From: Candidatus Sysuiplasma acidicola | Lineage (GTDB): Archaea > Thermoplasmatota > Thermoplasmata > Sysuiplasmatales > Sysuiplasmataceae | DNA: 48,261 nt | NCBI GenBank assembly: GCA_019721035.1 | Contig: JAHEAA010000017.1 | Span: 1 to 48,261 of the forward strand | Direction: 5' to 3' | Part shown: positions 7,334-20,044 of the stretch, one piece after another | Layout: the number at the start of each line of letters is the position of its first letter | Numbering within the stretch: the first letter of the stretch is position 1 | Notes under the pieces: generated by a model | Seen by the model: only the letters and a program-made list of their open reading frames with translations | Told to the model about the DNA's origin: nothing | Database searches by the model: none | Made by a program: the position numbers and the translations under genes

Positions 7334-8125
7334 TCACAGGGATGCCTCCGCAGTCCCGTTTGAAGCGGCTGTGAGGCGTTTTGGATTGATGCCTGCGGCG
7401 GCGAATCTCCTGCCCTCCGGCGACTCATATGATATGAAATCCACTCCGAACACGTTTCTCAGTGTTTCCGGCAGAAACACGGATTCCGGGGCACCCTCGG
7501 CCGCTACCTTCCCATCCTTGAGAAAGATGACATTGTCGCAGAGTCTGTACAGCAAGTTGATGTCATGTAGTATAACGACCACGGTTTTGCCCCGGGATTT
7601 CAAATCGGCAATGAGGGACTGCACAAATGCGTCTTTATCCACATCAAGGAAGGTCGTCGGCTCATCCATCAGCAGCACTTCGGAATCCTGAAAGAGCGCG
7701 CCGGCAATCATGACAAGCCTCTTCTCGCCTCCGCTCAGGCTGTTGAAGTCCCTGTGGGCCAGATGCGCAATACGGCACGTTTCCAGCACACTGGTCAGTC
7801 CGGTTTTCGTATAACCGTTTGAATAACCGAACACTGAAATCACATCCGCGGTGGAGAAATTGATGGGCTCCGGCGCCTCCTGCCTGACTATTGCCATTTT
7901 GCGGGACAGTTCGTGCTCCGAATAAGAGCGGATGTCCCTGCCGTCTATCAATATGCTTCCGGACTCCGGCCTGTTGTAGCCGTAAAGCAGATTGAGAAGC
8001 GTTGACTTGCCCGAGCCGTTCTTCCCGCCAATGCCGTTTATCTTTCCCGCCTGGATGGAGAAGGTGACGTCACTGAGACGAAAACTGCCGGCAGAGTGAC
8101 ACAAACCCCTGACTTCAATTTTCAT
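7334..8125 (-). CDS. ABC transporter ATPase, FecE/BtuD type
   Basis: This is the ATP-hydrolysing subunit of the importer whose permease and binding protein lie upstream. The 263-residue protein shows Walker A G-G-K-N-G-S-G-K-S-T, the Q-loop in V-R-Q-E, the signature L-S-G-G-E, Walker B V-L-L-M-D-E-P and the switch histidine in L-H-D-I. The open frame extends to 8176, but ATG 8125 gives the normal family N terminus (M-K-I-E-V-R-G) and overlaps the permease end by 11 bases, which suggests translational coupling. The substrate is probably a metal chelate, heme or cobalamin, and sequence alone does not choose. Confidence 0.88.
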   Translation of the reverse strand: MKIEVRGLCHSAGSFRLSDVTFSIQAGKINGIGGKNGSGKSTLLNLLYGYNRPESGSILIDGRDIRSYSEHELSRKMAIVRQEAPEPINFSTADVISVFGYSNGYTKTGLTSVLETCRIAHLAHRDFNSLSGGEKRLVMIAGALFQDSEVLLMDEPTTFLDVDKDAFVQSLIADLKSRGKTVVVILHDINLLYRLCDNVIFLKDGKVAAEGAPESVFLPETLRNVFGVDFISYESPEGRRFAAAGINPKRLTAASNGTAEASL

Positions 8126-9185
8126 ATGCACCACTCGAAAGTTTACCGAGCATGTAGATGAAGAAGGGAACGCCAATCATGCCTGTGATGATGCCGATGG
8201 GTATCACCTTTCCAGGAATCGCCATCCTTGCAATATCATCTGCAAGAACGAGAAAGATTGCACCGAGTATGGCGGAGGAAGGCAGCACATATCTGTTGGA
8301 CCCGCCGTAAAGCAGCCTGGACATATGCGGCATGATGAGACCGACGAATCCAATGAGTCCGCTGATAGAGACAGAGGCAGAAACACTCAGAGCCACGAGT
8401 GCGATGAGCATCCTCTTTGTCCGCTCCACCCTGATACCGACAGAGTGGGCGTAAGCCCCTCCTAGCTGCAATGCATTGAGTTCCCTGGAATAGAGAGACA
8501 TGATGAACATGGCAGGCAGCACTGTAAACGCGACAGGCAGCAGTTCCTGCCATGTGATGCCCTGAAGTGAGCCCAGCAGCCAGAAGAATGCGGAACTCTG
8601 GAGCTCGATATTGGAATAAATCATCAGCGCAACGACAGATGAAGTGAAAAATGATATGGAGACGCCCATGAGCAGCAGATATGTTGCAGGCACACGCCCA
8701 TGCCTGTGCGAAAGCGCGTAGACGAGAAAAACAGTCAGGAGTGCGAAGCAGAATGCGAGCATCTGAACGGAGTAGGGCCCGAATATGGTGATGCCGAAGA
8801 CTATGGCTCCGACTGCACCAAGCGCGGCTCCGCTGGATAGACCTATCACATACGGTTCGGTAATGGGATTCTTGAAAATGCTCTGAACAACGGCTCCGCC
8901 CATGCCCAGCGATGCACCCACAACAACACCGCCGAGAATCTCCGGCTCCCTGATGTAGAATACGATTTCAAAATACACCGGCCTGATGGTGAAATGCTGA
9001 ATGCCGCCAAGGACGGGGATTTGTCTGAAGAGTATTTCCATCACTGTTGCAAATGGAATGGATACCGGTCCGATGAAGAACGACGCGATGCTGAGTGCCG
9101 TCAGAGCTGCGAATGAGAGAAAGAGCATCATCAGTTTCGGCGATTGTGCTTTCTGTTCAACCCGATCGCTGATTTCACCTGCCAT
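8115..9185 (-). CDS. FecCD/BtuC-family ABC transporter permease
   Basis: This 356-residue permease has about ten hydrophobic helices. Family blocks are visible: [20 protein letters not shown] near residue 80, [13 protein letters not shown] near 110, and [13 protein letters not shown] near 285. The last is the conserved ATPase-coupling region. It forms the membrane channel for siderophore, heme or vitamin B12 import. It starts six bases after the binding-protein stop and overlaps the ATPase gene, so the three form one operon. Confidence 0.92.
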
Positions 9186-9191
9186 GAGACG

Positions 9192-10160
9192 TCAACCTGG
9201 AGGGGCAGGCGAGTATTTCAGATGCAGTGGAAAATTCGGAAGGACGAGAGGACTCGACGGATACATCGTGTTGATGAGCCATTGTATGGCATAGACGACT
9301 CTGAAATCCGGTTCGTTGAAGAAGTTGTCATTGAATATCATGTAGACCTTGCCGTTAAGCACTGCCTGTGTTTCGTTGAACGGCGTTTGATTCACAGCTG
9401 AGAACGGGACATACTGATCGAGCAGAATCGACTGCGGATTGTCATTCGCTATCAGTTCGCCGGGCATTGTGTAATAACCGCTCGCATTCGCTATGTTACG
9501 CAGATGAGAAACCTGGAAAAGGTTGTTTATAAAAGTGTTATTGCCGGCTGTCCAGTAACCGCCATAATTGCTCAGATAATAGAATACAGAGAGTTCCGAG
9601 CTGTTCTGTATACCCGATGTGGCAAGTGAGGCAGCACTGATGGAGGCGTTCATCCAGCTGTTGATCAGAGAAGCATTTGCGGCTGTTCCGGTGATCTTGC
9701 CGAGTATCGTATTCTGACTTTCAATCTGAGCAAGGCTGCCGGGATCCAGGAAGATGTATGCTATGTTGGCAGAAAGCAGCTGACTGATTTCGGATTGCGG
9801 ATAATCGGAAAAGGCTATGACAGCCTGCGGTGAGAGGTTGAGTATCTGTTCCACATTCATTGTCGGGTAGTCACCCACAACAGGAAGCGTTGAATTTGGA
9901 GGGTACTGTGAGTAGTAGTCCACACCTACGAGATCTGAGTATGCGCCGAGAGCGTAAAACGTTGCAGTGGCCGCCGGGTCAAGGGACACTATACGGGTAA
10001 GCGGCTTCTGGAATGTGTACGTTCTGTTCTGACCGTCGGTTATTGTGATCGGTCCCTGCGAGATGTGAGTCCTGGCCCTGCTGTAGCCGAAGGCAAATAC
10101 GCCAGCGGAAAGTACCAGCACCACAAGCACTACTGAGATTATCTTCATCCTGTTGTCCAT
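9192..10160 (-). CDS. Periplasmic-type substrate-binding protein of the FecCD/BtuC importer
   Basis: This 322-residue protein has an N-terminal hydrophobic segment (about residues 5-27) acting as signal or membrane anchor. The class III binding-protein fold follows: R-I-V-S-L-D-P-A-A-T-A-T-F-Y-A-L-G-A near residue 57, V-G-D-Y-P-T-M-N-V-E-Q-I-L-N-L-S-P near 95, and a C-terminal lobe. It captures the ligand outside the cell. It is rich in N-x-S/T sites, which is common in glycosylated archaeal surface proteins. ATG 10160 is preceded by AGGTGG four bases upstream. No lipobox cysteine is seen. Confidence 0.88.
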   Translation of the reverse strand: MDNRMKIISVVLVVLVLSAGVFAFGYSRARTHISQGPITITDGQNRTYTFQKPLTRIVSLDPAATATFYALGAYSDLVGVDYYSQYPPNSTLPVVGDYPTMNVEQILNLSPQAVIAFSDYPQSEISQLLSANIAYIFLDPGSLAQIESQNTILGKITGTAANASLINSWMNASISAASLATSGIQNSSELSVFYYLSNYGGYWTAGNNTFINNLFQVSHLRNIANASGYYTMPGELIANDNPQSILLDQYVPFSAVNQTPFNETQAVLNGKVYMIFNDNFFNEPDFRVVYAIQWLINTMYPSSPLVLPNFPLHLKYSPAPPG

Positions 10161-13342: not shown

Positions 13343-14371
13343 ATGACTTATTTCGGCTATGACGTTAGCCGTGTGCTACCCGGAACCGGGTTGATGACGT
13401 CTACTCATTGGAAAGGTGTCAGATTGTCATATCTCTGGGTAGAGACGGCCATACAGATAATCGGTGTTGTTATACTAGCTCCACTGGTGGAGGGAATCAT
13501 AGCAAGGCTCAAAGCCGTCGTTGAGTGCCGGCATGGTCCAAGCATTTTCCAGCCTTACTTCGACCTGAGAAAATATCTGACAAAGGAGACTTTACTGAAC
13601 ACAGATTCCACGGCACTGTTCGATCTTGCTCCATATTTTGTCTTCAGCATATATCTGGTGATATCGTTCGTTATACCCGTAATTCTGCCGTTTCCAGTTG
13701 AGTTCAGCCCAATCGTCGATCTTCTCGGCGGCGGCCTGCTGTTCGTCCTGGCCGGAGTCATACAGATACTTGCAGCACTTGATGCAAGGAGTTCTTTCAC
13801 GTCGCTGGGCGCCGGAAGGTCTGTGACATTTTCGGCGTATGCCGAGCCGACGCTGATAATGGTTTTCTTCGCAGTTGCGCTCATAAGCAACAGCAACAAT
13901 CCATACCTTACTCATGACCTGATATCAGCCTCAATCAACAATTATCTGACGCTGCCGCACCTTCTTTCCAGCGTCGCATTCTTCATGCTCTTTCTCTTCG
14001 AGACAGGAAGATTGCCCACCGAAAGTTCCGGCCTGATGGAATTCGGAATGATTGATGAGGCACGACTCTACGAGTACTCCGGACGGCACATGTTCCTTCT
14101 GAAATACTCGTCATACATGAAACAGTATCTGCTTGGCTCCGTTCTCATCAACGTGTTCATATTCCCGTGGTTCCTTCAGACTGGACTGCTTGGTTCCCTT
14201 CTGGACATACCGATCATGCTCGGCAAGTGGATCGTCGTTGCAATAATCCTCGTCTTCCTTGAAGAGACGCTCGCGAAGCTCAGGCTCTTCAAGATACAGG
14301 ATTACCTGACGCTTTCATTCGCACTCGCAGTGTTCTCTGTCATTACGTATTCGCTGGGTGGTCTGCTGTGA
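13343..14371 (+). CDS. hyfC: HyfC/NuoH-like membrane subunit of a hydrogenase-4-type complex
   Basis: This 342-residue membrane protein belongs to the complex I subunit 1/HyfC/HycD family, which links the peripheral redox arm to the ion-pumping arm. Hallmarks are R-H-G-P-S-I-F-Q-P-Y-F-D-L near residue 65 and E-T-G-R-L-P-T-E-S followed by E-F-G-M-I-D-E-A-R-L-Y-E-Y-S-G-R near 220-250. It has about eight helices. It is the first gene of a tightly packed six-gene operon and its stop overlaps the next start. A TATA-like CTTTAATA lies at 13325-13332, too near ATG 13343 for a leaderless transcript. GTG 13373 or ATG 13394 may therefore be the real start. Confidence 0.88.
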   Translation: MTYFGYDVSRVLPGTGLMTSTHWKGVRLSYLWVETAIQIIGVVILAPLVEGIIARLKAVVECRHGPSIFQPYFDLRKYLTKETLLNTDSTALFDLAPYFVFSIYLVISFVIPVILPFPVEFSPIVDLLGGGLLFVLAGVIQILAALDARSSFTSLGAGRSVTFSAYAEPTLIMVFFAVALISNSNNPYLTHDLISASINNYLTLPHLLSSVAFFMLFLFETGRLPTESSGLMEFGMIDEARLYEYSGRHMFLLKYSSYMKQYLLGSVLINVFIFPWFLQTGLLGSLLDIPIMLGKWIVVAIILVFLEETLAKLRLFKIQDYLTLSFALAVFSVITYSLGGLL

Positions 14372-14988
14372 TTAATCTGGAAATTGTGAATTTCATCGGC
14401 ATACTGATGCTCATTTCAGCGCTTGCAGTGCAAATCCGCTCGTATGTGAGGCCGATGATCGATACGCTGATCATACAATCGATTCTGCTGGCAGGCATTG
14501 CAACATATCTGGGTATTGCCACTTCGAATCTTCTTCTGCTGCTCCTTGCCGCACTCATAGTGCTGTTGAGGGGTTTCCTGCTGACGTACGTCCTGGGGAG
14601 AAGGCTGCCGAGAAATCACAAGTTCATCAGGGAGTACTCGACAGGCACCGGCGTGGCGCTGTTGTACAGCGTCATAGTCTTCATAGCATCATTCATTGTG
14701 TACAGACTGGTATTTTATCCGGCGGTGGGCCATCCGGACGGGGCAATAGCCATCTCACTCATCACTCAGGGAATGCTGCTGATACTGACAAGACGTAACA
14801 GCTTTGCCCACTTCATCGGTTTCGTGGAGGAGGAGAACGGCATTGTTCTGATGAGCCTGAGCATAATCTCACTTCCGCTTGTCATTGAAATAAACATACT
14901 GCTCGACGTGCTGGCGCTGGTTGTGGCCGGCGCCGTGCTCATACATGAAAAAATAGAACATGTGCCCGTTCAGGAGCTGATGGGATGA
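14368..14988 (+). CDS. hyfE: HyfE-like membrane subunit
   Basis: This 206-residue protein has about six or seven transmembrane helices and matches the HyfE family, whose C-terminal part resembles complex I subunit NuoK. The region F-I-G-F-V-E-E-E-N-G-I-V-L (about residues 150-162) carries the acidic membrane residues typical of HyfE and NuoK. HyfE is a small antiporter-arm subunit of hydrogenase-4-type and Ehr-type complexes. Both gene ends overlap their neighbours by four bases, which supports co-translation. Confidence 0.85.
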   Translation: MINLEIVNFIGILMLISALAVQIRSYVRPMIDTLIIQSILLAGIATYLGIATSNLLLLLLAALIVLLRGFLLTYVLGRRLPRNHKFIREYSTGTGVALLYSVIVFIASFIVYRLVFYPAVGHPDGAIAISLITQGMLLILTRRNSFAHFIGFVEEENGIVLMSLSIISLPLVIEINILLDVLALVVAGAVLIHEKIEHVPVQELMG

Positions 14989-16340
14989 TTGATCTTCTCC
15001 CTGTCATTCTGCTCGTGATTCCAATCGCATTTTCGCTCAGCTATTTCCTGAAACATTTCAGGCCCATGCACGTTATTGCGGCATCGATGACTGTGGCAAT
15101 CGCAGTCCTGCTCAATCTGTTTTCCATTTCCGAATCGTCGTTCTTCCTCGTGGACAGTCTCACAAGAGTCATACTGCTGACCGTGTCGATCATTTACCTG
15201 CTCTCCACGGTGTTCGGTCTAGGGTATCACAGCAGAATGGGCGGTTCCAAGAATCTCAGACTGCATATGTCGCTCATGGACCTGTTTGCGGCCAGCATGT
15301 TCTTCTCACTTATGGTGAACGACTTCGGTCTTCTGTGGATCGGAGTGGAAGCCACGACCGTATCCAGTGCATTGCTCCTTGTCATAGAAATGCAGCCGCT
15401 CGACGTTGAGGCAGCCTGGAGATATGTCATCATAGTTTCGGCCGGCCTTACGATAGGCCTCATTTCGGTCATCATGATTTACTTCAATTTCGGCACACTG
15501 ACGATTTCACGGCTCATATCGGTCAGGCACACGGCTTCGGTAACGCTGGAAATAGCGGCCGCGACGGCGCTTGTAGGATACGGCACAAAGATCGGGCTCG
15601 TGCCAATGCATACATGGTTGCCCGACGCCCACAGCAGAGCGCCGTCCGAAGTGAGCGCCATGTTTTCCGGCGTCCTGCTGCCTGTCGCGGTTTATGCCCT
15701 TTACCGGGTGTATCAGGTCACATTCGACCCGAAAATGGAATATCTCTTCATCTTCTTCGGCGTTGCAACGGTTGTAATCGCTGCGTTCATACTGGCTTCG
15801 CAGCGCGATCTGAAAAGGATGTTTGCCTACTCCACGATGGAGAACATGGGCATAATGGTCATCGGATTCATCATCGGTGGCGCTGGTTTCGCTGGCGCTG
15901 TAATCCTCCTTGTTTCGCATGCATTCGGAAAGGCAGGGGCATTCTACTCGTCCGGCAACATACTCGAGAGCTACCAGACGAGATACATGCCGGATATTCA
16001 CAACCTGAAGGAAAACATGCCATATACGACCGCTTCCCTGATGCTCTCCTCACTGAGCGTCACAGGCTCGCCTCCCTTCGGCACTTTCATAGGCGAATTT
16101 CTCATAATACTGGCACTCTTCATGGCAGGGTACTGGTTCATTGCAATCATCATTGTCATTTCAATAATCATTGCATTTGCGAGCGTCAACTTCAAGATCG
16201 CAGGCATGGTATTCTCCGGCTCCGAAGAGCGGAGAAGTGATGCGGGACGGTCGCAGAGGGCAGTTGCCATCATTGCAGCCCTGTTGTCGGCCATGGTCAC
16301 CGTCTTTTTCTTCATCACCGGGGGTTATGTGATTGGATAA
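14985..16340 (+). CDS. hyfF: HyfF-like antiporter-type (NuoL/M/N-like) subunit
   Basis: This 451-residue membrane protein has about fourteen helices of the Mrp-antiporter/complex I proton-pumping family. Diagnostic are G-T-K-I-G-L-V-P-M-H-T-W-L-P-D-A-H-S-R-A-P-S-E-V-S-A near residue 200, with the conserved Lys and His of the proton path, and W-I-G-V-E-A-T-T near 110, with the conserved Glu. It probably moves H+ or Na+ across the membrane, driven by redox chemistry in the large and small subunits. It overlaps hyfE by four bases and the large-subunit gene by eight. Confidence 0.9.
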   Translation: MIDLLPVILLVIPIAFSLSYFLKHFRPMHVIAASMTVAIAVLLNLFSISESSFFLVDSLTRVILLTVSIIYLLSTVFGLGYHSRMGGSKNLRLHMSLMDLFAASMFFSLMVNDFGLLWIGVEATTVSSALLLVIEMQPLDVEAAWRYVIIVSAGLTIGLISVIMIYFNFGTLTISRLISVRHTASVTLEIAAATALVGYGTKIGLVPMHTWLPDAHSRAPSEVSAMFSGVLLPVAVYALYRVYQVTFDPKMEYLFIFFGVATVVIAAFILASQRDLKRMFAYSTMENMGIMVIGFIIGGAGFAGAVILLVSHAFGKAGAFYSSGNILESYQTRYMPDIHNLKENMPYTTASLMLSSLSVTGSPPFGTFIGEFLIILALFMAGYWFIAIIIVISIIIAFASVNFKIAGMVFSGSEERRSDAGRSQRAVAIIAALLSAMVTVFFFITGGYVIG

Positions 16341-17547
16341 GGACAACCAGCTGTCTGCAGTGTTCAGAATAGACAACGTGCTTTACTGCGTGAAGGGCCG
16401 TTCGTCGACTGCGCTTGTCCGTTGCGACACAGCGGAACTGAAAGACTATGAAAACTATCCGTCGATTACGGGTGAATTTGAAAAGTCACCGTCGGACGGC
16501 AAGCTGTTCAACTTCAATCTTGGACCAGCATCCGGTGGAATACTTGAAAGTGTTAAACTGAATGTCTACACTGACGGCGAAAGAATTACGGGCATAGTGC
16601 CGGAAACACAATTCAAGAACAGGCACGTCCGGATGAAAGGCTCCGCACCGGACGACGCACTGCTCAAGACGGAGAGGATAAACGGAGCATATGCGGCAGG
16701 CTACGGAACGGCGTTCTGTCTTGCGGCGGAGGATATTTCGGGAGTCGATGTGGACTACGATGTTCAGCTCGTGAGGATGATCATGTCCGAGCTTGAAAGG
16801 ATGGCCAACCACATTCAAGTCATCGGAAAGCTTTCCGAGGGAGCCTCCCAAAACGTTGCTACGTATCAGCTGTTTGCACTCGAAGAGAGGGTAAGAAGAA
16901 TAATTTCCAAACATTTCGGGCACAGGTTCTTTTACGGCGTCAACGGCATCGGCGGCCTGGAAAGGGCGGTGGCGACAGACGGACTGAGCGCGGAGCTGGA
17001 TCGTGTTATCGGCGAGCTGGCATCCATCTGGGATGCACTCACGTCGTCCAGAATGTTCCTGGACAGAATACAGACCACCTGCTATGCGAAGAAACCGTGG
17101 ACGGTAGGCCCCGTTGCCAGGGCCGCCGACTTCAAATTCGACACGAGGACTTCTGGCTATCTGCCGTACAGCGACTTCGGCTTCGAAATATCCTCCGACG
17201 ATACCGGTGACGTTCTTTCCAGAGCACTGGTGCGCCGATACGAGATAGACAGCTCCCGTTCAATGATCGGCGAAATATGCAAGAAAGTCAGGCGTGTCGG
17301 CAAAAAGACGCGAACGGTAAACGGATTTGATGGAAGAGCGGTGAAACGTGTTGAAACCCCGGGCGGCGACATGGTGATGTTCCTTGACATGAAGAATAAT
17401 CTTGTCACCGGTTTCGACATCCGCTCTGCATCGACCGCCAACATGCCTGCATTCATGCAGGGAGCGGTGACAGGCATACTGACCGATTTCACCTTTGCAT
17501 GGGAGAGCTTCGGCTTCTGGATATCTGAAATGGGGGGTTATCAGTGA
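16333..17547 (+). CDS. HyfG/NuoCD-like large subunit lacking the nickel-binding cysteines
   Basis: This 404-residue protein aligns with the large subunit of group 4 [NiFe] hydrogenases and complex I NuoCD. A short NuoC-like N-terminal part is followed by the catalytic-subunit fold, with S-E-L-E-R-M-A-N-H and G-I-G-G-L-E-R blocks. Where hydrogenases have C-x-x-C after E-R, this protein reads N-G-A-Y (residues 117-120). Where they have D-P-C-x-x-C near the C terminus, it reads T-D-F-T-F-A-W (about 384-390). All four Ni/Fe ligands are thus missing, so it is very unlikely to be a hydrogenase. It fits the energy-converting hydrogenase-related (Ehr) group. The start is TTG 16333. Confidence 0.85.
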   Translation: MDKDNQLSAVFRIDNVLYCVKGRSSTALVRCDTAELKDYENYPSITGEFEKSPSDGKLFNFNLGPASGGILESVKLNVYTDGERITGIVPETQFKNRHVRMKGSAPDDALLKTERINGAYAAGYGTAFCLAAEDISGVDVDYDVQLVRMIMSELERMANHIQVIGKLSEGASQNVATYQLFALEERVRRIISKHFGHRFFYGVNGIGGLERAVATDGLSAELDRVIGELASIWDALTSSRMFLDRIQTTCYAKKPWTVGPVARAADFKFDTRTSGYLPYSDFGFEISSDDTGDVLSRALVRRYEIDSSRSMIGEICKKVRRVGKKTRTVNGFDGRAVKRVETPGGDMVMFLDMKNNLVTGFDIRSASTANMPAFMQGAVTGILTDFTFAWESFGFWISEMGGYQ

Positions 17548-18176
17548 ACAACTGGTTTTTCAGAGGTCTGCTAAAGGGGAATATGGCATCGAAATTCCCA
17601 GCCTCAGAACCCGAGTCTGTTTCCCCCTGGTCTACACGGCCGGTGAGGATCAGGGAGGGAACGGTCACATGCCCTGTGGATGCGATATCGGGGGACAGCG
17701 TGGCGATGGAGAAGTGCATCTCATGCGGCAGGTGCAGCGATGCTTTCGGTCCGGAAGGGTCTGTCAGCACATCCACATCGAGAATATCCGAACCGCGTTT
17801 CAGGAGATCCTTCAACCTTTTCATGATAGACACGGGCTCCTGCGGCGCGTGCAATCTGGAAGTGAAGGCACTTTCAAACCCGATGCACGATATGCAGAGA
17901 CTGGGAATATTTTTCACGGGCACGCCGCGGCATGCGGATGCATTACTCGTCGTCGGTGTCCTCTCTGATGAAATGAAGGGGGCACTCAGGCTCGCATATG
18001 ACGCGATGCCCCATCCGAAGCTCGTCTTTGCAATAGGTGCGTGCGCGATATCTGGCGGAATACTCGGGAAGGGCATCGGGGAAGTGCTGCAGGCCGATGT
18101 GATCGTTCCCGGATGCCCTCCAAGTCCTTTCACCATACTCGATGCGCTGATAAAGTCGAAGGGGAGCACTAAATGA
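17544..18176 (+). CDS. HyfI/NuoB-like small subunit with fused minimal ferredoxin-like segment
   Basis: The C-terminal two thirds of this 210-residue protein are the iron-sulfur small subunit. C100 and C103 (in G-S-C-G-A-C), C167 (in G-A-C-A-I-S-G-G) and C181 (in P-G-C-P-P) are the four ligands of the proximal [4Fe-4S] cluster, so electron transfer is retained. The N-terminal part adds C43-P-V-D-A-I and C58-x-x-C61-x-x-C64. These are the ligands for a single cluster in the order normally found across the two halves of a 2[4Fe-4S] ferredoxin. This may replace the separate HyfH/HycF ferredoxin subunit, which is absent from the operon. The gene overlaps both neighbours by four bases. Confidence 0.87.
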   Translation: MNNWFFRGLLKGNMASKFPASEPESVSPWSTRPVRIREGTVTCPVDAISGDSVAMEKCISCGRCSDAFGPEGSVSTSTSRISEPRFRRSFNLFMIDTGSCGACNLEVKALSNPMHDMQRLGIFFTGTPRHADALLVVGVLSDEMKGALRLAYDAMPHPKLVFAIGACAISGGILGKGIGEVLQADVIVPGCPPSPFTILDALIKSKGSTK

Positions 18177-20044
18177 TCATACTGATAATAGCCCTGCTTT
18201 ACACGATACCGCTCCTGATCTCGGCGGTATCAAAGAAGATCTCATACGCCGCAGGCATGGTTGCGGCGGGTGTCACAATAGTGCTGGCAATCATCTCATT
18301 GACGCAGTCACACATTACTGAGACTGTCGCGCTGGGGAGCTCAGTTTTCGGCGTCGACAGCCTTTCATGGTACTTCCTGCTGGTCGGCTCCGTTTCATGG
18401 ATATTGACATCCCTGTATTCGATAAGCTACGATGATTACAGCAGGGTGGTTACTGCATCCTATCACGCGGCCATACTTTCTATAGTTCTACTGATATTCT
18501 CGCGCAGCTATCTCCCCTTCCTGTTCGCGTGGGAGGGCATGTCAATCTCTGGTTATTTCCTCATCAGTTACAAGAGGAATACTGACAGGGTTCCTCCGTA
18601 TGTTTTCCTTGTGTTCGGAGAGATGAGCACGCTGCTCATACTGCTTATGTTCGCTTCCTTCTACGCGTCTACCGGCATTTCGTACTTTGTGAAGTCGGAT
18701 TACAGCCAGATCGCATTGCTTGTCGGTCTGATTGGTTTTGTGGTAAAGCTTGGAATCACGCCGTTCCAGATGACCGAATGGCTGCCGATTGCGCATGGCG
18801 GCGCACCGGTCAACGGTTCTGTTCTCTTCAGCGCCACAATGACCATGGCGTCGCTCTATTCCATTCTCAGAATAATCAGTTTCGCCCATCCGTCGATTCT
18901 CATCGGCGGGCTGCTCATGGCCATAGGTGCGTTTTCGCTCCTGTTTGCTGCCATTTATGCCGCCTCATCCGAGCACACGAAAATGCTTCCGGCATACAGC
19001 ACGATAGAGAACAGCGGCGCAATGCTTATTCTCGCAGGTGCGTCGATCACGAGCTTGAACTACGGTGATTTGCCGCTCGCAACGTTTGCTCTCGCAGGTG
19101 CCATGGTCTATGTGTTCACGCACACTGTTGCAAAAACAGGGCTTTTCCTGTACGCGGGCTATATAGAAAAAACATCGGGAACGCTGGACCTGACGAGAGT
19201 CACTGGCTCCTCCTCTTCAGTGTTTTCAACCGGTGGTCTGCTGAATGCCCTGTCACTGTCCGGTCTTCTCCCTTTTGGCGGAGGACTCGGTGAATGGATG
19301 CTGCTGGAGACGCTCTTCGTGATGGTGACGTTCAATTCTCCGGGCATTTCAGTTCTCTCCACCTTTACCGGCCTGATGGCGTCCCTCGGCGCCGGCATAA
19401 CGCTGGTGGCAATGACAAAATACTTTGGTTTCGGAGGCCGGCTCAGAAAGAACGGTCCCGCGGGTCCGGTGCTCATGCGGCCCTCGATCCTCGCATCTGG
19501 CTTCGTTGCGCTGATGCTTGGCATAGGGGGCACCCTGCTGATAACAGCTGCCGGAAGCGTGACGGCAGATTTTACCGGGTTGAGCACAGGCCCGATAATT
19601 ACCGGTCTCCTTGCCATCCCGGACGGCCTTCTTATTGCATCTCCGGGGCTGAATGGTCCTTTCGGCTTTGTTTCTCCCGCCTTCGTCGGACTGCTCCTTC
19701 TTTCAATATTCGCCCTCATTTTCCTGTCACTGCGGCACAGCAGCGCAAGACATGTTGCAGTCTGGAACAACGGTGTCGCAAAGATTGAGGAGCCGAATTC
19801 GTTTGCCTACGCGAATACTCTGCGCCTGACAATGAAGCGCGTCTACCCGGCAGGCAACGGTTCGAGCAGGGAGGATTTCACATCATCATATGACGTCTTC
19901 TGGATATGGCTCATAGTGCTGGCAAAACATTTTGAACTGGCGTCAAGACGTTTCTCGCTCTGGTTCATGAACAGCGATCTGAGCAGGTACATGCTATATC
20001 TCCTCCTTGCATTCTTTGCCGTTCTGCTGTACATAATTGTTTGA
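18173..20044 (+). CDS. hyfB: HyfB-like antiporter-type (NuoL-like) subunit
   Basis: This 623-residue protein is the second antiporter-type subunit. It has about sixteen hydrophobic helices, and its length fits HyfB/HycC. Conserved positions are W-E-G-M-S-I-S-G-Y near residue 120 (functional Glu) and K-L-G-I-T-P-F-Q-M-T-E-W-L-P-I-A-H-G-G-A-P-V-N-G-S near 190 (functional Lys, His). A helix-rich C-terminal extension follows, as in HyfB. It ends the operon. With HyfF it gives two potential ion channels; a HyfD-like subunit is not present in the window. Confidence 0.9.
   Translation: MIILIIALLYTIPLLISAVSKKISYAAGMVAAGVTIVLAIISLTQSHITETVALGSSVFGVDSLSWYFLLVGSVSWILTSLYSISYDDYSRVVTASYHAAILSIVLLIFSRSYLPFLFAWEGMSISGYFLISYKRNTDRVPPYVFLVFGEMSTLLILLMFASFYASTGISYFVKSDYSQIALLVGLIGFVVKLGITPFQMTEWLPIAHGGAPVNGSVLFSATMTMASLYSILRIISFAHPSILIGGLLMAIGAFSLLFAAIYAASSEHTKMLPAYSTIENSGAMLILAGASITSLNYGDLPLATFALAGAMVYVFTHTVAKTGLFLYAGYIEKTSGTLDLTRVTGSSSSVFSTGGLLNALSLSGLLPFGGGLGEWMLLETLFVMVTFNSPGISVLSTFTGLMASLGAGITLVAMTKYFGFGGRLRKNGPAGPVLMRPSILASGFVALMLGIGGTLLITAAGSVTADFTGLSTGPIITGLLAIPDGLLIASPGLNGPFGFVSPAFVGLLLLSIFALIFLSLRHSSARHVAVWNNGVAKIEEPNSFAYANTLRLTMKRVYPAGNGSSREDFTSSYDVFWIWLIVLAKHFELASRRFSLWFMNSDLSRYMLYLLLAFFAVLLYIIV

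Follow-up and report, generated by a model that had tools for sequence, protein, structure and literature searches.

A predicted Ehr-type membrane complex with a large subunit lacking the nickel ligands in Candidatus Sysuiplasma acidicola

The window (the whole stretch of DNA analysed, 48,261 nucleotides of contig JAHEAA010000017.1, assembly GCA_019721035.1, from Candidatus Sysuiplasma acidicola) carries six genes in the order hyfC-E-F-G-I-B, with neighbouring genes overlapping by a few bases. The genes and the features within them are listed below with the evidence in brackets.

13343..14371, plus strand, hyfC-like membrane anchor of the NuoH type (PF00146, 1.9e-27; conserved acidic loop)
14368..14988, plus strand, hyfE-like membrane subunit (PRK11492, 6e-8, below the family cut-off; occurs in homologous operons)
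14985..16340, plus strand, hyfF-like antiporter/pump subunit (PRK06458.1-2, 466 bits, above the cut-off of 437; E122, K202 and K316 kept)
16333..17547, plus strand, hyfG-like large subunit without Ni ligands (ORF, Pfam, PDB sequence, alignment; model pLDDT 91.5)
16522..16548, plus strand, beta1-beta2 loop G64-E72 of HyfG, with S67 for the GPxH histidine and E72 at the position of MbhL E21 (alignment)
16681..16692, plus strand, N117-G-A-Y120 of HyfG replacing the first CxxC, with G118 at the position of Nqo4 Tyr87 (alignment)
17482..17502, plus strand, T384-D-F-T-F-A-W390 of HyfG, a clade signature upstream of the Ni ligands (alignment)
17512..17529, plus strand, G394-F-W-I-S-E399 of HyfG replacing DPCxxC (alignment)
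17544..18176, plus strand, hyfI-like small subunit (PF01058, 4e-22; pLDDT 92.3; fold match HycG/MbhJ)
17670..17735, plus strand, one-cluster ferredoxin-like segment fused to HyfI, C43, C58, C61 and C64 (alignment)
17841..18116, plus strand, proximal [4Fe-4S] ligands of HyfI, C100, C103, C167 and C191, in hydrogenase spacing (alignment)
18173..20044, plus strand, hyfB-like antiporter/pump subunit (PRK06459, 433 bits, just below the cut-off of 460; E121, K192 and K321 kept)

The E. coli hyf operon comprises hyfA-J and hyfR; that of the window is made up of C, E, F, G, I and B alone and contains none of hyfA, D, H or J, so the operon is not the complete hydrogenase-4-like one of the original prediction. 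The antiporter subunits were correctly said to keep their pumping residues, as the glutamate and lysines of HyfF and HyfB given above match those of E. coli Hyf, and the same is true of the acidic loop of HyfC (E220, E227, E244). A small subunit, a NuoH-type anchor and Mrp antiporter-like subunits are found together in this one operon, as expected of an Ehr complex. Apart from the present finding, three minus-strand ORFs at 7334-10160 of the window resemble, by their translations alone, an ABC importer (ATPase, permease, binding protein).

The hyfG ORF is intact, encoding 404 aa from a TTG start, and overlaps the hyfF stop. Pfam assigned the protein to Complex1_49kDa (3e-17), and PDB sequence searches matched MbhL, HycE and Nqo4, as did the family profile with E-values down to 4e-48; in NCBIfam every match lay far below cut-off and no family named the protein. 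The structural model was confident, the sole segment with pLDDT under 50 being residues 66-70 in the beta1-beta2 loop, and its best fold matches included HycE (TMq 0.80) and the complex I 49 kDa subunits/Nqo4. Differences between hyfG and the homologue L054 were distributed over the codon positions as 0.25/0.20/0.58, as expected under purifying selection, and this pattern, taken with the 31 invariant columns in the alignment of 60 homologues, argues that the motif loss described below is not due to chance.

Motifs were mapped in one alignment of HyfG with E. coli HycE/HyfG and homologues. N117-G-A-Y120 falls exactly on C-G-I-C (C-x-x-C) of the E. coli proteins, as had been predicted. TDFTFAW had been taken as the replacement of DPCxxC; it was aligned to SDAPLII of HycE, upstream of the Ni ligands, and the true counterpart of DPCxxC is G394-F395-W396-I397-S398-E399, 10 residues after the start of TDFTFAW. 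The loss of all four Ni ligands was borne out, as none of the five HyfG cysteines (19, 31, 129, 250 and 316) is at a Ni-ligand position; none of them is family-conserved either. The Ni site is lost in 60/60 aligned homologues, with N/A/V/Q at position 117, F/H/Y/L/A at position 120 and mostly W or S at position 396. At the C4 position (399) an acidic residue is found throughout (E/D in 60/60), as in Nqo4 (DPVMGD), and the HyfG C-terminus, which ends 5 residues further on, is therefore partly NuoD-like. A shift of other cysteines into the Ni site, the outcome for which the alignment was to be checked, was ruled out, as none takes over in the 60 homologues. The C-terminus of L114, a long-branch clade member, is divergent (FESFGIMIGELDAGG).

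The NuoD motif around the quinone tyrosine was found to be lacking, as originally claimed, and the loss includes a second complex I quinone residue: Nqo4 Tyr87 is replaced by G118 and His38 by S67. Across the 60 homologues the His38 position is S/T/A and the Tyr87 position mostly G. E72, placed on MbhL E21 by alignment, is glutamate in 59/60.

The claim that the small subunit keeps its [4Fe-4S] ligands was upheld for the four proximal cysteines; C100, C103 and C167 are invariant, C191 is present in 48/49 aligned sequences, and E106 is also retained. The N-terminal CP + CxxCxxC, the ligand count for one [4Fe-4S], is kept in 47/47 aligned members having the segment, and aligns as a shortened form of the classic Ehr small-subunit set. 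With the fused segment the relay is predicted to be short and to need no additional ferredoxin subunit. In L120 and L043 HyfI is without the full N-terminal ferredoxin-like Cys set, so this entry cluster is not universal in the clade.

Clade loci were obtained by a profile scan of genome contigs, a single-sequence scan having given no match. The profile scan yielded 71 related loci, mainly in Thermoplasmata, Sulfolobales and Nitrososphaerota; carriers include Ca. Sysuiplasma superficiale, Metallosphaera, Sulfolobus and records labelled Micrarchaeota, although metagenome records may hold binning errors and lone exotic placements such as the last need care. The six-gene set is complete wherever flanks permit, in the order C-E-F-G-I-B; the Metallosphaera loci L081 and L085 instead read F-G-I-B-C-E, hyfB there preceding C and E. 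In a quick-search tree of the large subunit (root unknown), a branch with support 100* separates the clade from the remaining sequences, which fall into a set of CxxC hydrogenases plus complex I (100*) and a set of four classic Ehr rows (98*); the sample did not extend to MbsL, Mbx or the bacterial Ehr proteins of the literature. Within this sample the clade is a well-supported group that appears separate from the hydrogenases, from complex I and from 'classic' Ehr. Over the 71 loci the operon has no conserved partner gene next to it, formate dehydrogenase included, and the complex therefore looks self-sufficient with its six subunits. Neighbouring genes were dropped as a hint to the substrate, as recurrence is limited to a UspA-like gene (24 loci, mostly on the opposite strand), ATPases of ABC transporters and the like.

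HypD, the sole Hyp protein searched for, is absent from the genome of the window (95% complete), and no [NiFe] hydrogenase was found in this genome, where the sole PF00374 match is part of complex I NuoD. PF01512 (NuoF) was not found in the genome and NuoEFG genes are absent from the operon; archaeal complex I likewise lacks the NADH-input module (NuoEFG). Two POR-type domains are present, so reduced ferredoxin can be supplied, and COX1 is present twice. The complex I NuoD (G000:C5:100570-101433; L002, L048) has Cys at 2/4 Ni-ligand positions, as has NuoD of three other genomes in the class (L023, L027, L029), the motifs being RLCY and DMC/DVC alongside the quinone His and Tyr; such a Cys-retaining NuoD is possibly the relic of a stage between hydrogenase and complex I. 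Recoding of internal TGA codons in NuoD loci of other genomes was considered and rejected, these being ordinary gene borders before nuoD.

Co-occurrence was analysed in 60 genomes, namely that of the window and those of 59 relatives. COX1 was present in 11/13 clade-positive and 3/47 clade-negative genomes (Fisher 7e-8), and HypD in 2/13 and 35/47, respectively (Fisher 2e-4), both comparisons being confounded by kinship. Within this sample the clade is confined to families f1, f9, f17 and f13, and COX1 to f1, f9 and f17. G019, a complete, clade-positive genome, is without COX1 and has HypD. One genome of f1, the family of the window, lacks the clade gene (G005); COX1 is missing from it as well, HypD and a CxxC group 4 hydrogenase (L049) are present, and the pattern looks like an exchange within a single family.

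Loss of Ni motifs in such enzymes is already known, and the window complex adds another Ehr-type case. In acid-mine Thermoplasmatales (A-, E- and Gplasma, Fer1 and Fer2), Yelton et al. (2013, PMC3750248) described putative group 4 hydrogenases without either Ni-binding motif, the loss 'possibly indicating some other function', and a Sulfobacillus study, in which the name Ehr is used, reported loss of both motifs in that bacterium (PMC4378227). The case is therefore less singular than it had appeared. The genes of Yelton et al., likened to the clade by description and not by accession, agree with it in related archaea, acid-mine habitat, gene type and loss of both motifs, and the main text of that paper is without residue mapping or small-subunit analysis. 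The residue mapping, clade signature, fused one-cluster segment, retained E72 and HypD/COX1 pattern were not found in the literature, subscription Ehr papers aside; with the same reservation, the original description of the substrate as unidentified is still true of Ehr complexes.

Classic Ehr (Geobacter, Sulfobacillus, Margulisbacteria) was compared via the sequences L044-L047 only; these share the hyf-like membrane subunits and the absence of Ni ligands with the clade, but keep the GPxH histidine, have the motifs ERISGDN (L047: EAVSGDE) and VPDFPLINKS and a longer NuoC-type N-terminal part, and form a separate branch, L044-L046 also having a longer ferredoxin Cys set. E. coli Hyf/FHL (HycE) shares B, C, E, F, G and I, the fold, the proximal ligands and the pump residues, whereas the window complex is without CxxC/DPCxxC, HyfA, D, H and J, in a genome without HypD. 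The genome's own complex I, which is NuoF-less and probably ferredoxin-fed, has the fold and the acidic C4 in common with HyfG, but keeps His38 and Tyr87 (GPQHP, RLCY) and two Ni-position cysteines.

Judged on these features, the complex is very probably a six-subunit, membrane-bound Ehr-type complex and not a hydrogenase. The Ehr reading of the original prediction is supported by the lost Ni and quinone residues, the retained pump and FeS relay, the absence of HypD and the clade-wide extent of the changes. The best overall explanation, to which we assign a probability of about 0.5, is a Ni-free proton-pumping ferredoxin:quinone Ehr complex. Reduced ferredoxin supplied by 2-oxoacid:ferredoxin oxidoreductases would donate electrons to the fused HyfI segment, from which they would pass via the proximal cluster to an acceptor in a chamber of HyfG, HyfI and HyfC, and the redox reaction would power proton pumping by HyfB and HyfF. 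The most likely acceptor is, tentatively, the membrane quinone used in aerobic respiration, in keeping with the homology of the chamber and with a distribution that is mostly aerobic; the His/Tyr pair of complex I would play no part in its binding, and charge would be handled by E72 and R115. The complex would then resemble a minimal complex I running from ferredoxin to quinone, at work alongside the cell's own NuoF-less one. Against a quinone, both proposed complex I head-group residues are absent, as in MBS, so that quinone reduction would need an unproven site, and the COX1 pattern comes from three families, G019 being an exception.

The same complex could also run in reverse, the proton gradient lifting electrons from a quinol or mid-potential donor to ferredoxin for biosynthesis. 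Acidophiles maintain a large inward proton gradient, complex I-type pumps are in principle reversible, and the NuoF-less complex I could be the forward machine; no sequence feature fixes the direction, however, and POR enzymes already yield reduced ferredoxin, which makes this mode unlikely. Acid mine drainage is rich in sulfur compounds, as would suit a sulfur or polysulfide reductase like Pyrococcus MBS. The two complexes have a complex I-like build in common, and MBS, too, lacks H38 and Y87 of Nqo4 and has lost some of the Ni cysteines (PMC7684303). In MBS, however, two Ni-site cysteines are kept, the E21 glutamate is absent and the proximal CxxC segment is 3 residues shorter, so that the proximal cluster, on which catalysis depends, is held by three cysteines (PMC7684303), whereas in the window complex all four Ni cysteines are gone, E72 is kept and the HyfI segment is of hydrogenase length. 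An MBS-type three-Cys cluster was rejected, given the four proximal Cys in hydrogenase spacing, and with a terminal oxidase in most carriers a reductase of this kind is improbable.

It is rather improbable, too, that the complex is redox-dead, with a working antiporter part and HyfG/HyfI as structural relics: the catalytic ligands are gone and the antiporter parts intact, but the invariant HyfG columns, the near-invariant FeS cysteines of HyfI and the conserved fused ferredoxin segment point to selection on electron transfer. A formate hydrogenlyase-like partnership with formate dehydrogenase could be supposed from the formate hydrogen lyase cluster mentioned in Fer1 (PMC3750248) and the FDH-Ehr proposed in Margulisbacteria (PMC6349859); with no formate dehydrogenase conserved by the operon, HyfA/HyfH-type electron-input subunits absent and H2 to be produced without a Ni site, it is very improbable. 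Although HyfG has the overall fold of HycE, it is scarcely credible that the complex is a genuine hydrogenase binding nickel through unusual ligands, since no consistent Cys, His or acidic set provides four ligands, the one uniform substitute is the C4 acid also present in complex I, HyfG stops shortly after it, and HypD is missing.

Ehr complexes occupy a position intermediate between hydrogenases and complex I. The clade is a fairly clean case among them, occurring mainly in genomes that have a terminal oxidase and lack HypD, and having no conserved partner genes; it is also carried by cultured genera (Metallosphaera). Taken further, the ferredoxin:quinone reading may describe a respiratory complex of archaea in its own right, a Ni-free pump self-contained in its six subunits, found in mostly aerobic archaea of several phyla, that replaces the Ni-dependent hydrogenase in O2-respiring lineages and whose acceptor site (S/T/A67, E72, R115, TDFxF..ESFG) is unlike those of complex I, MBH and MBS; we regard this joint claim as possible but doubtful. 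If the acceptor is a quinone, the clade would represent a second way of building a quinone site on this scaffold; if it is not, the complex would point to a new respiratory reaction.
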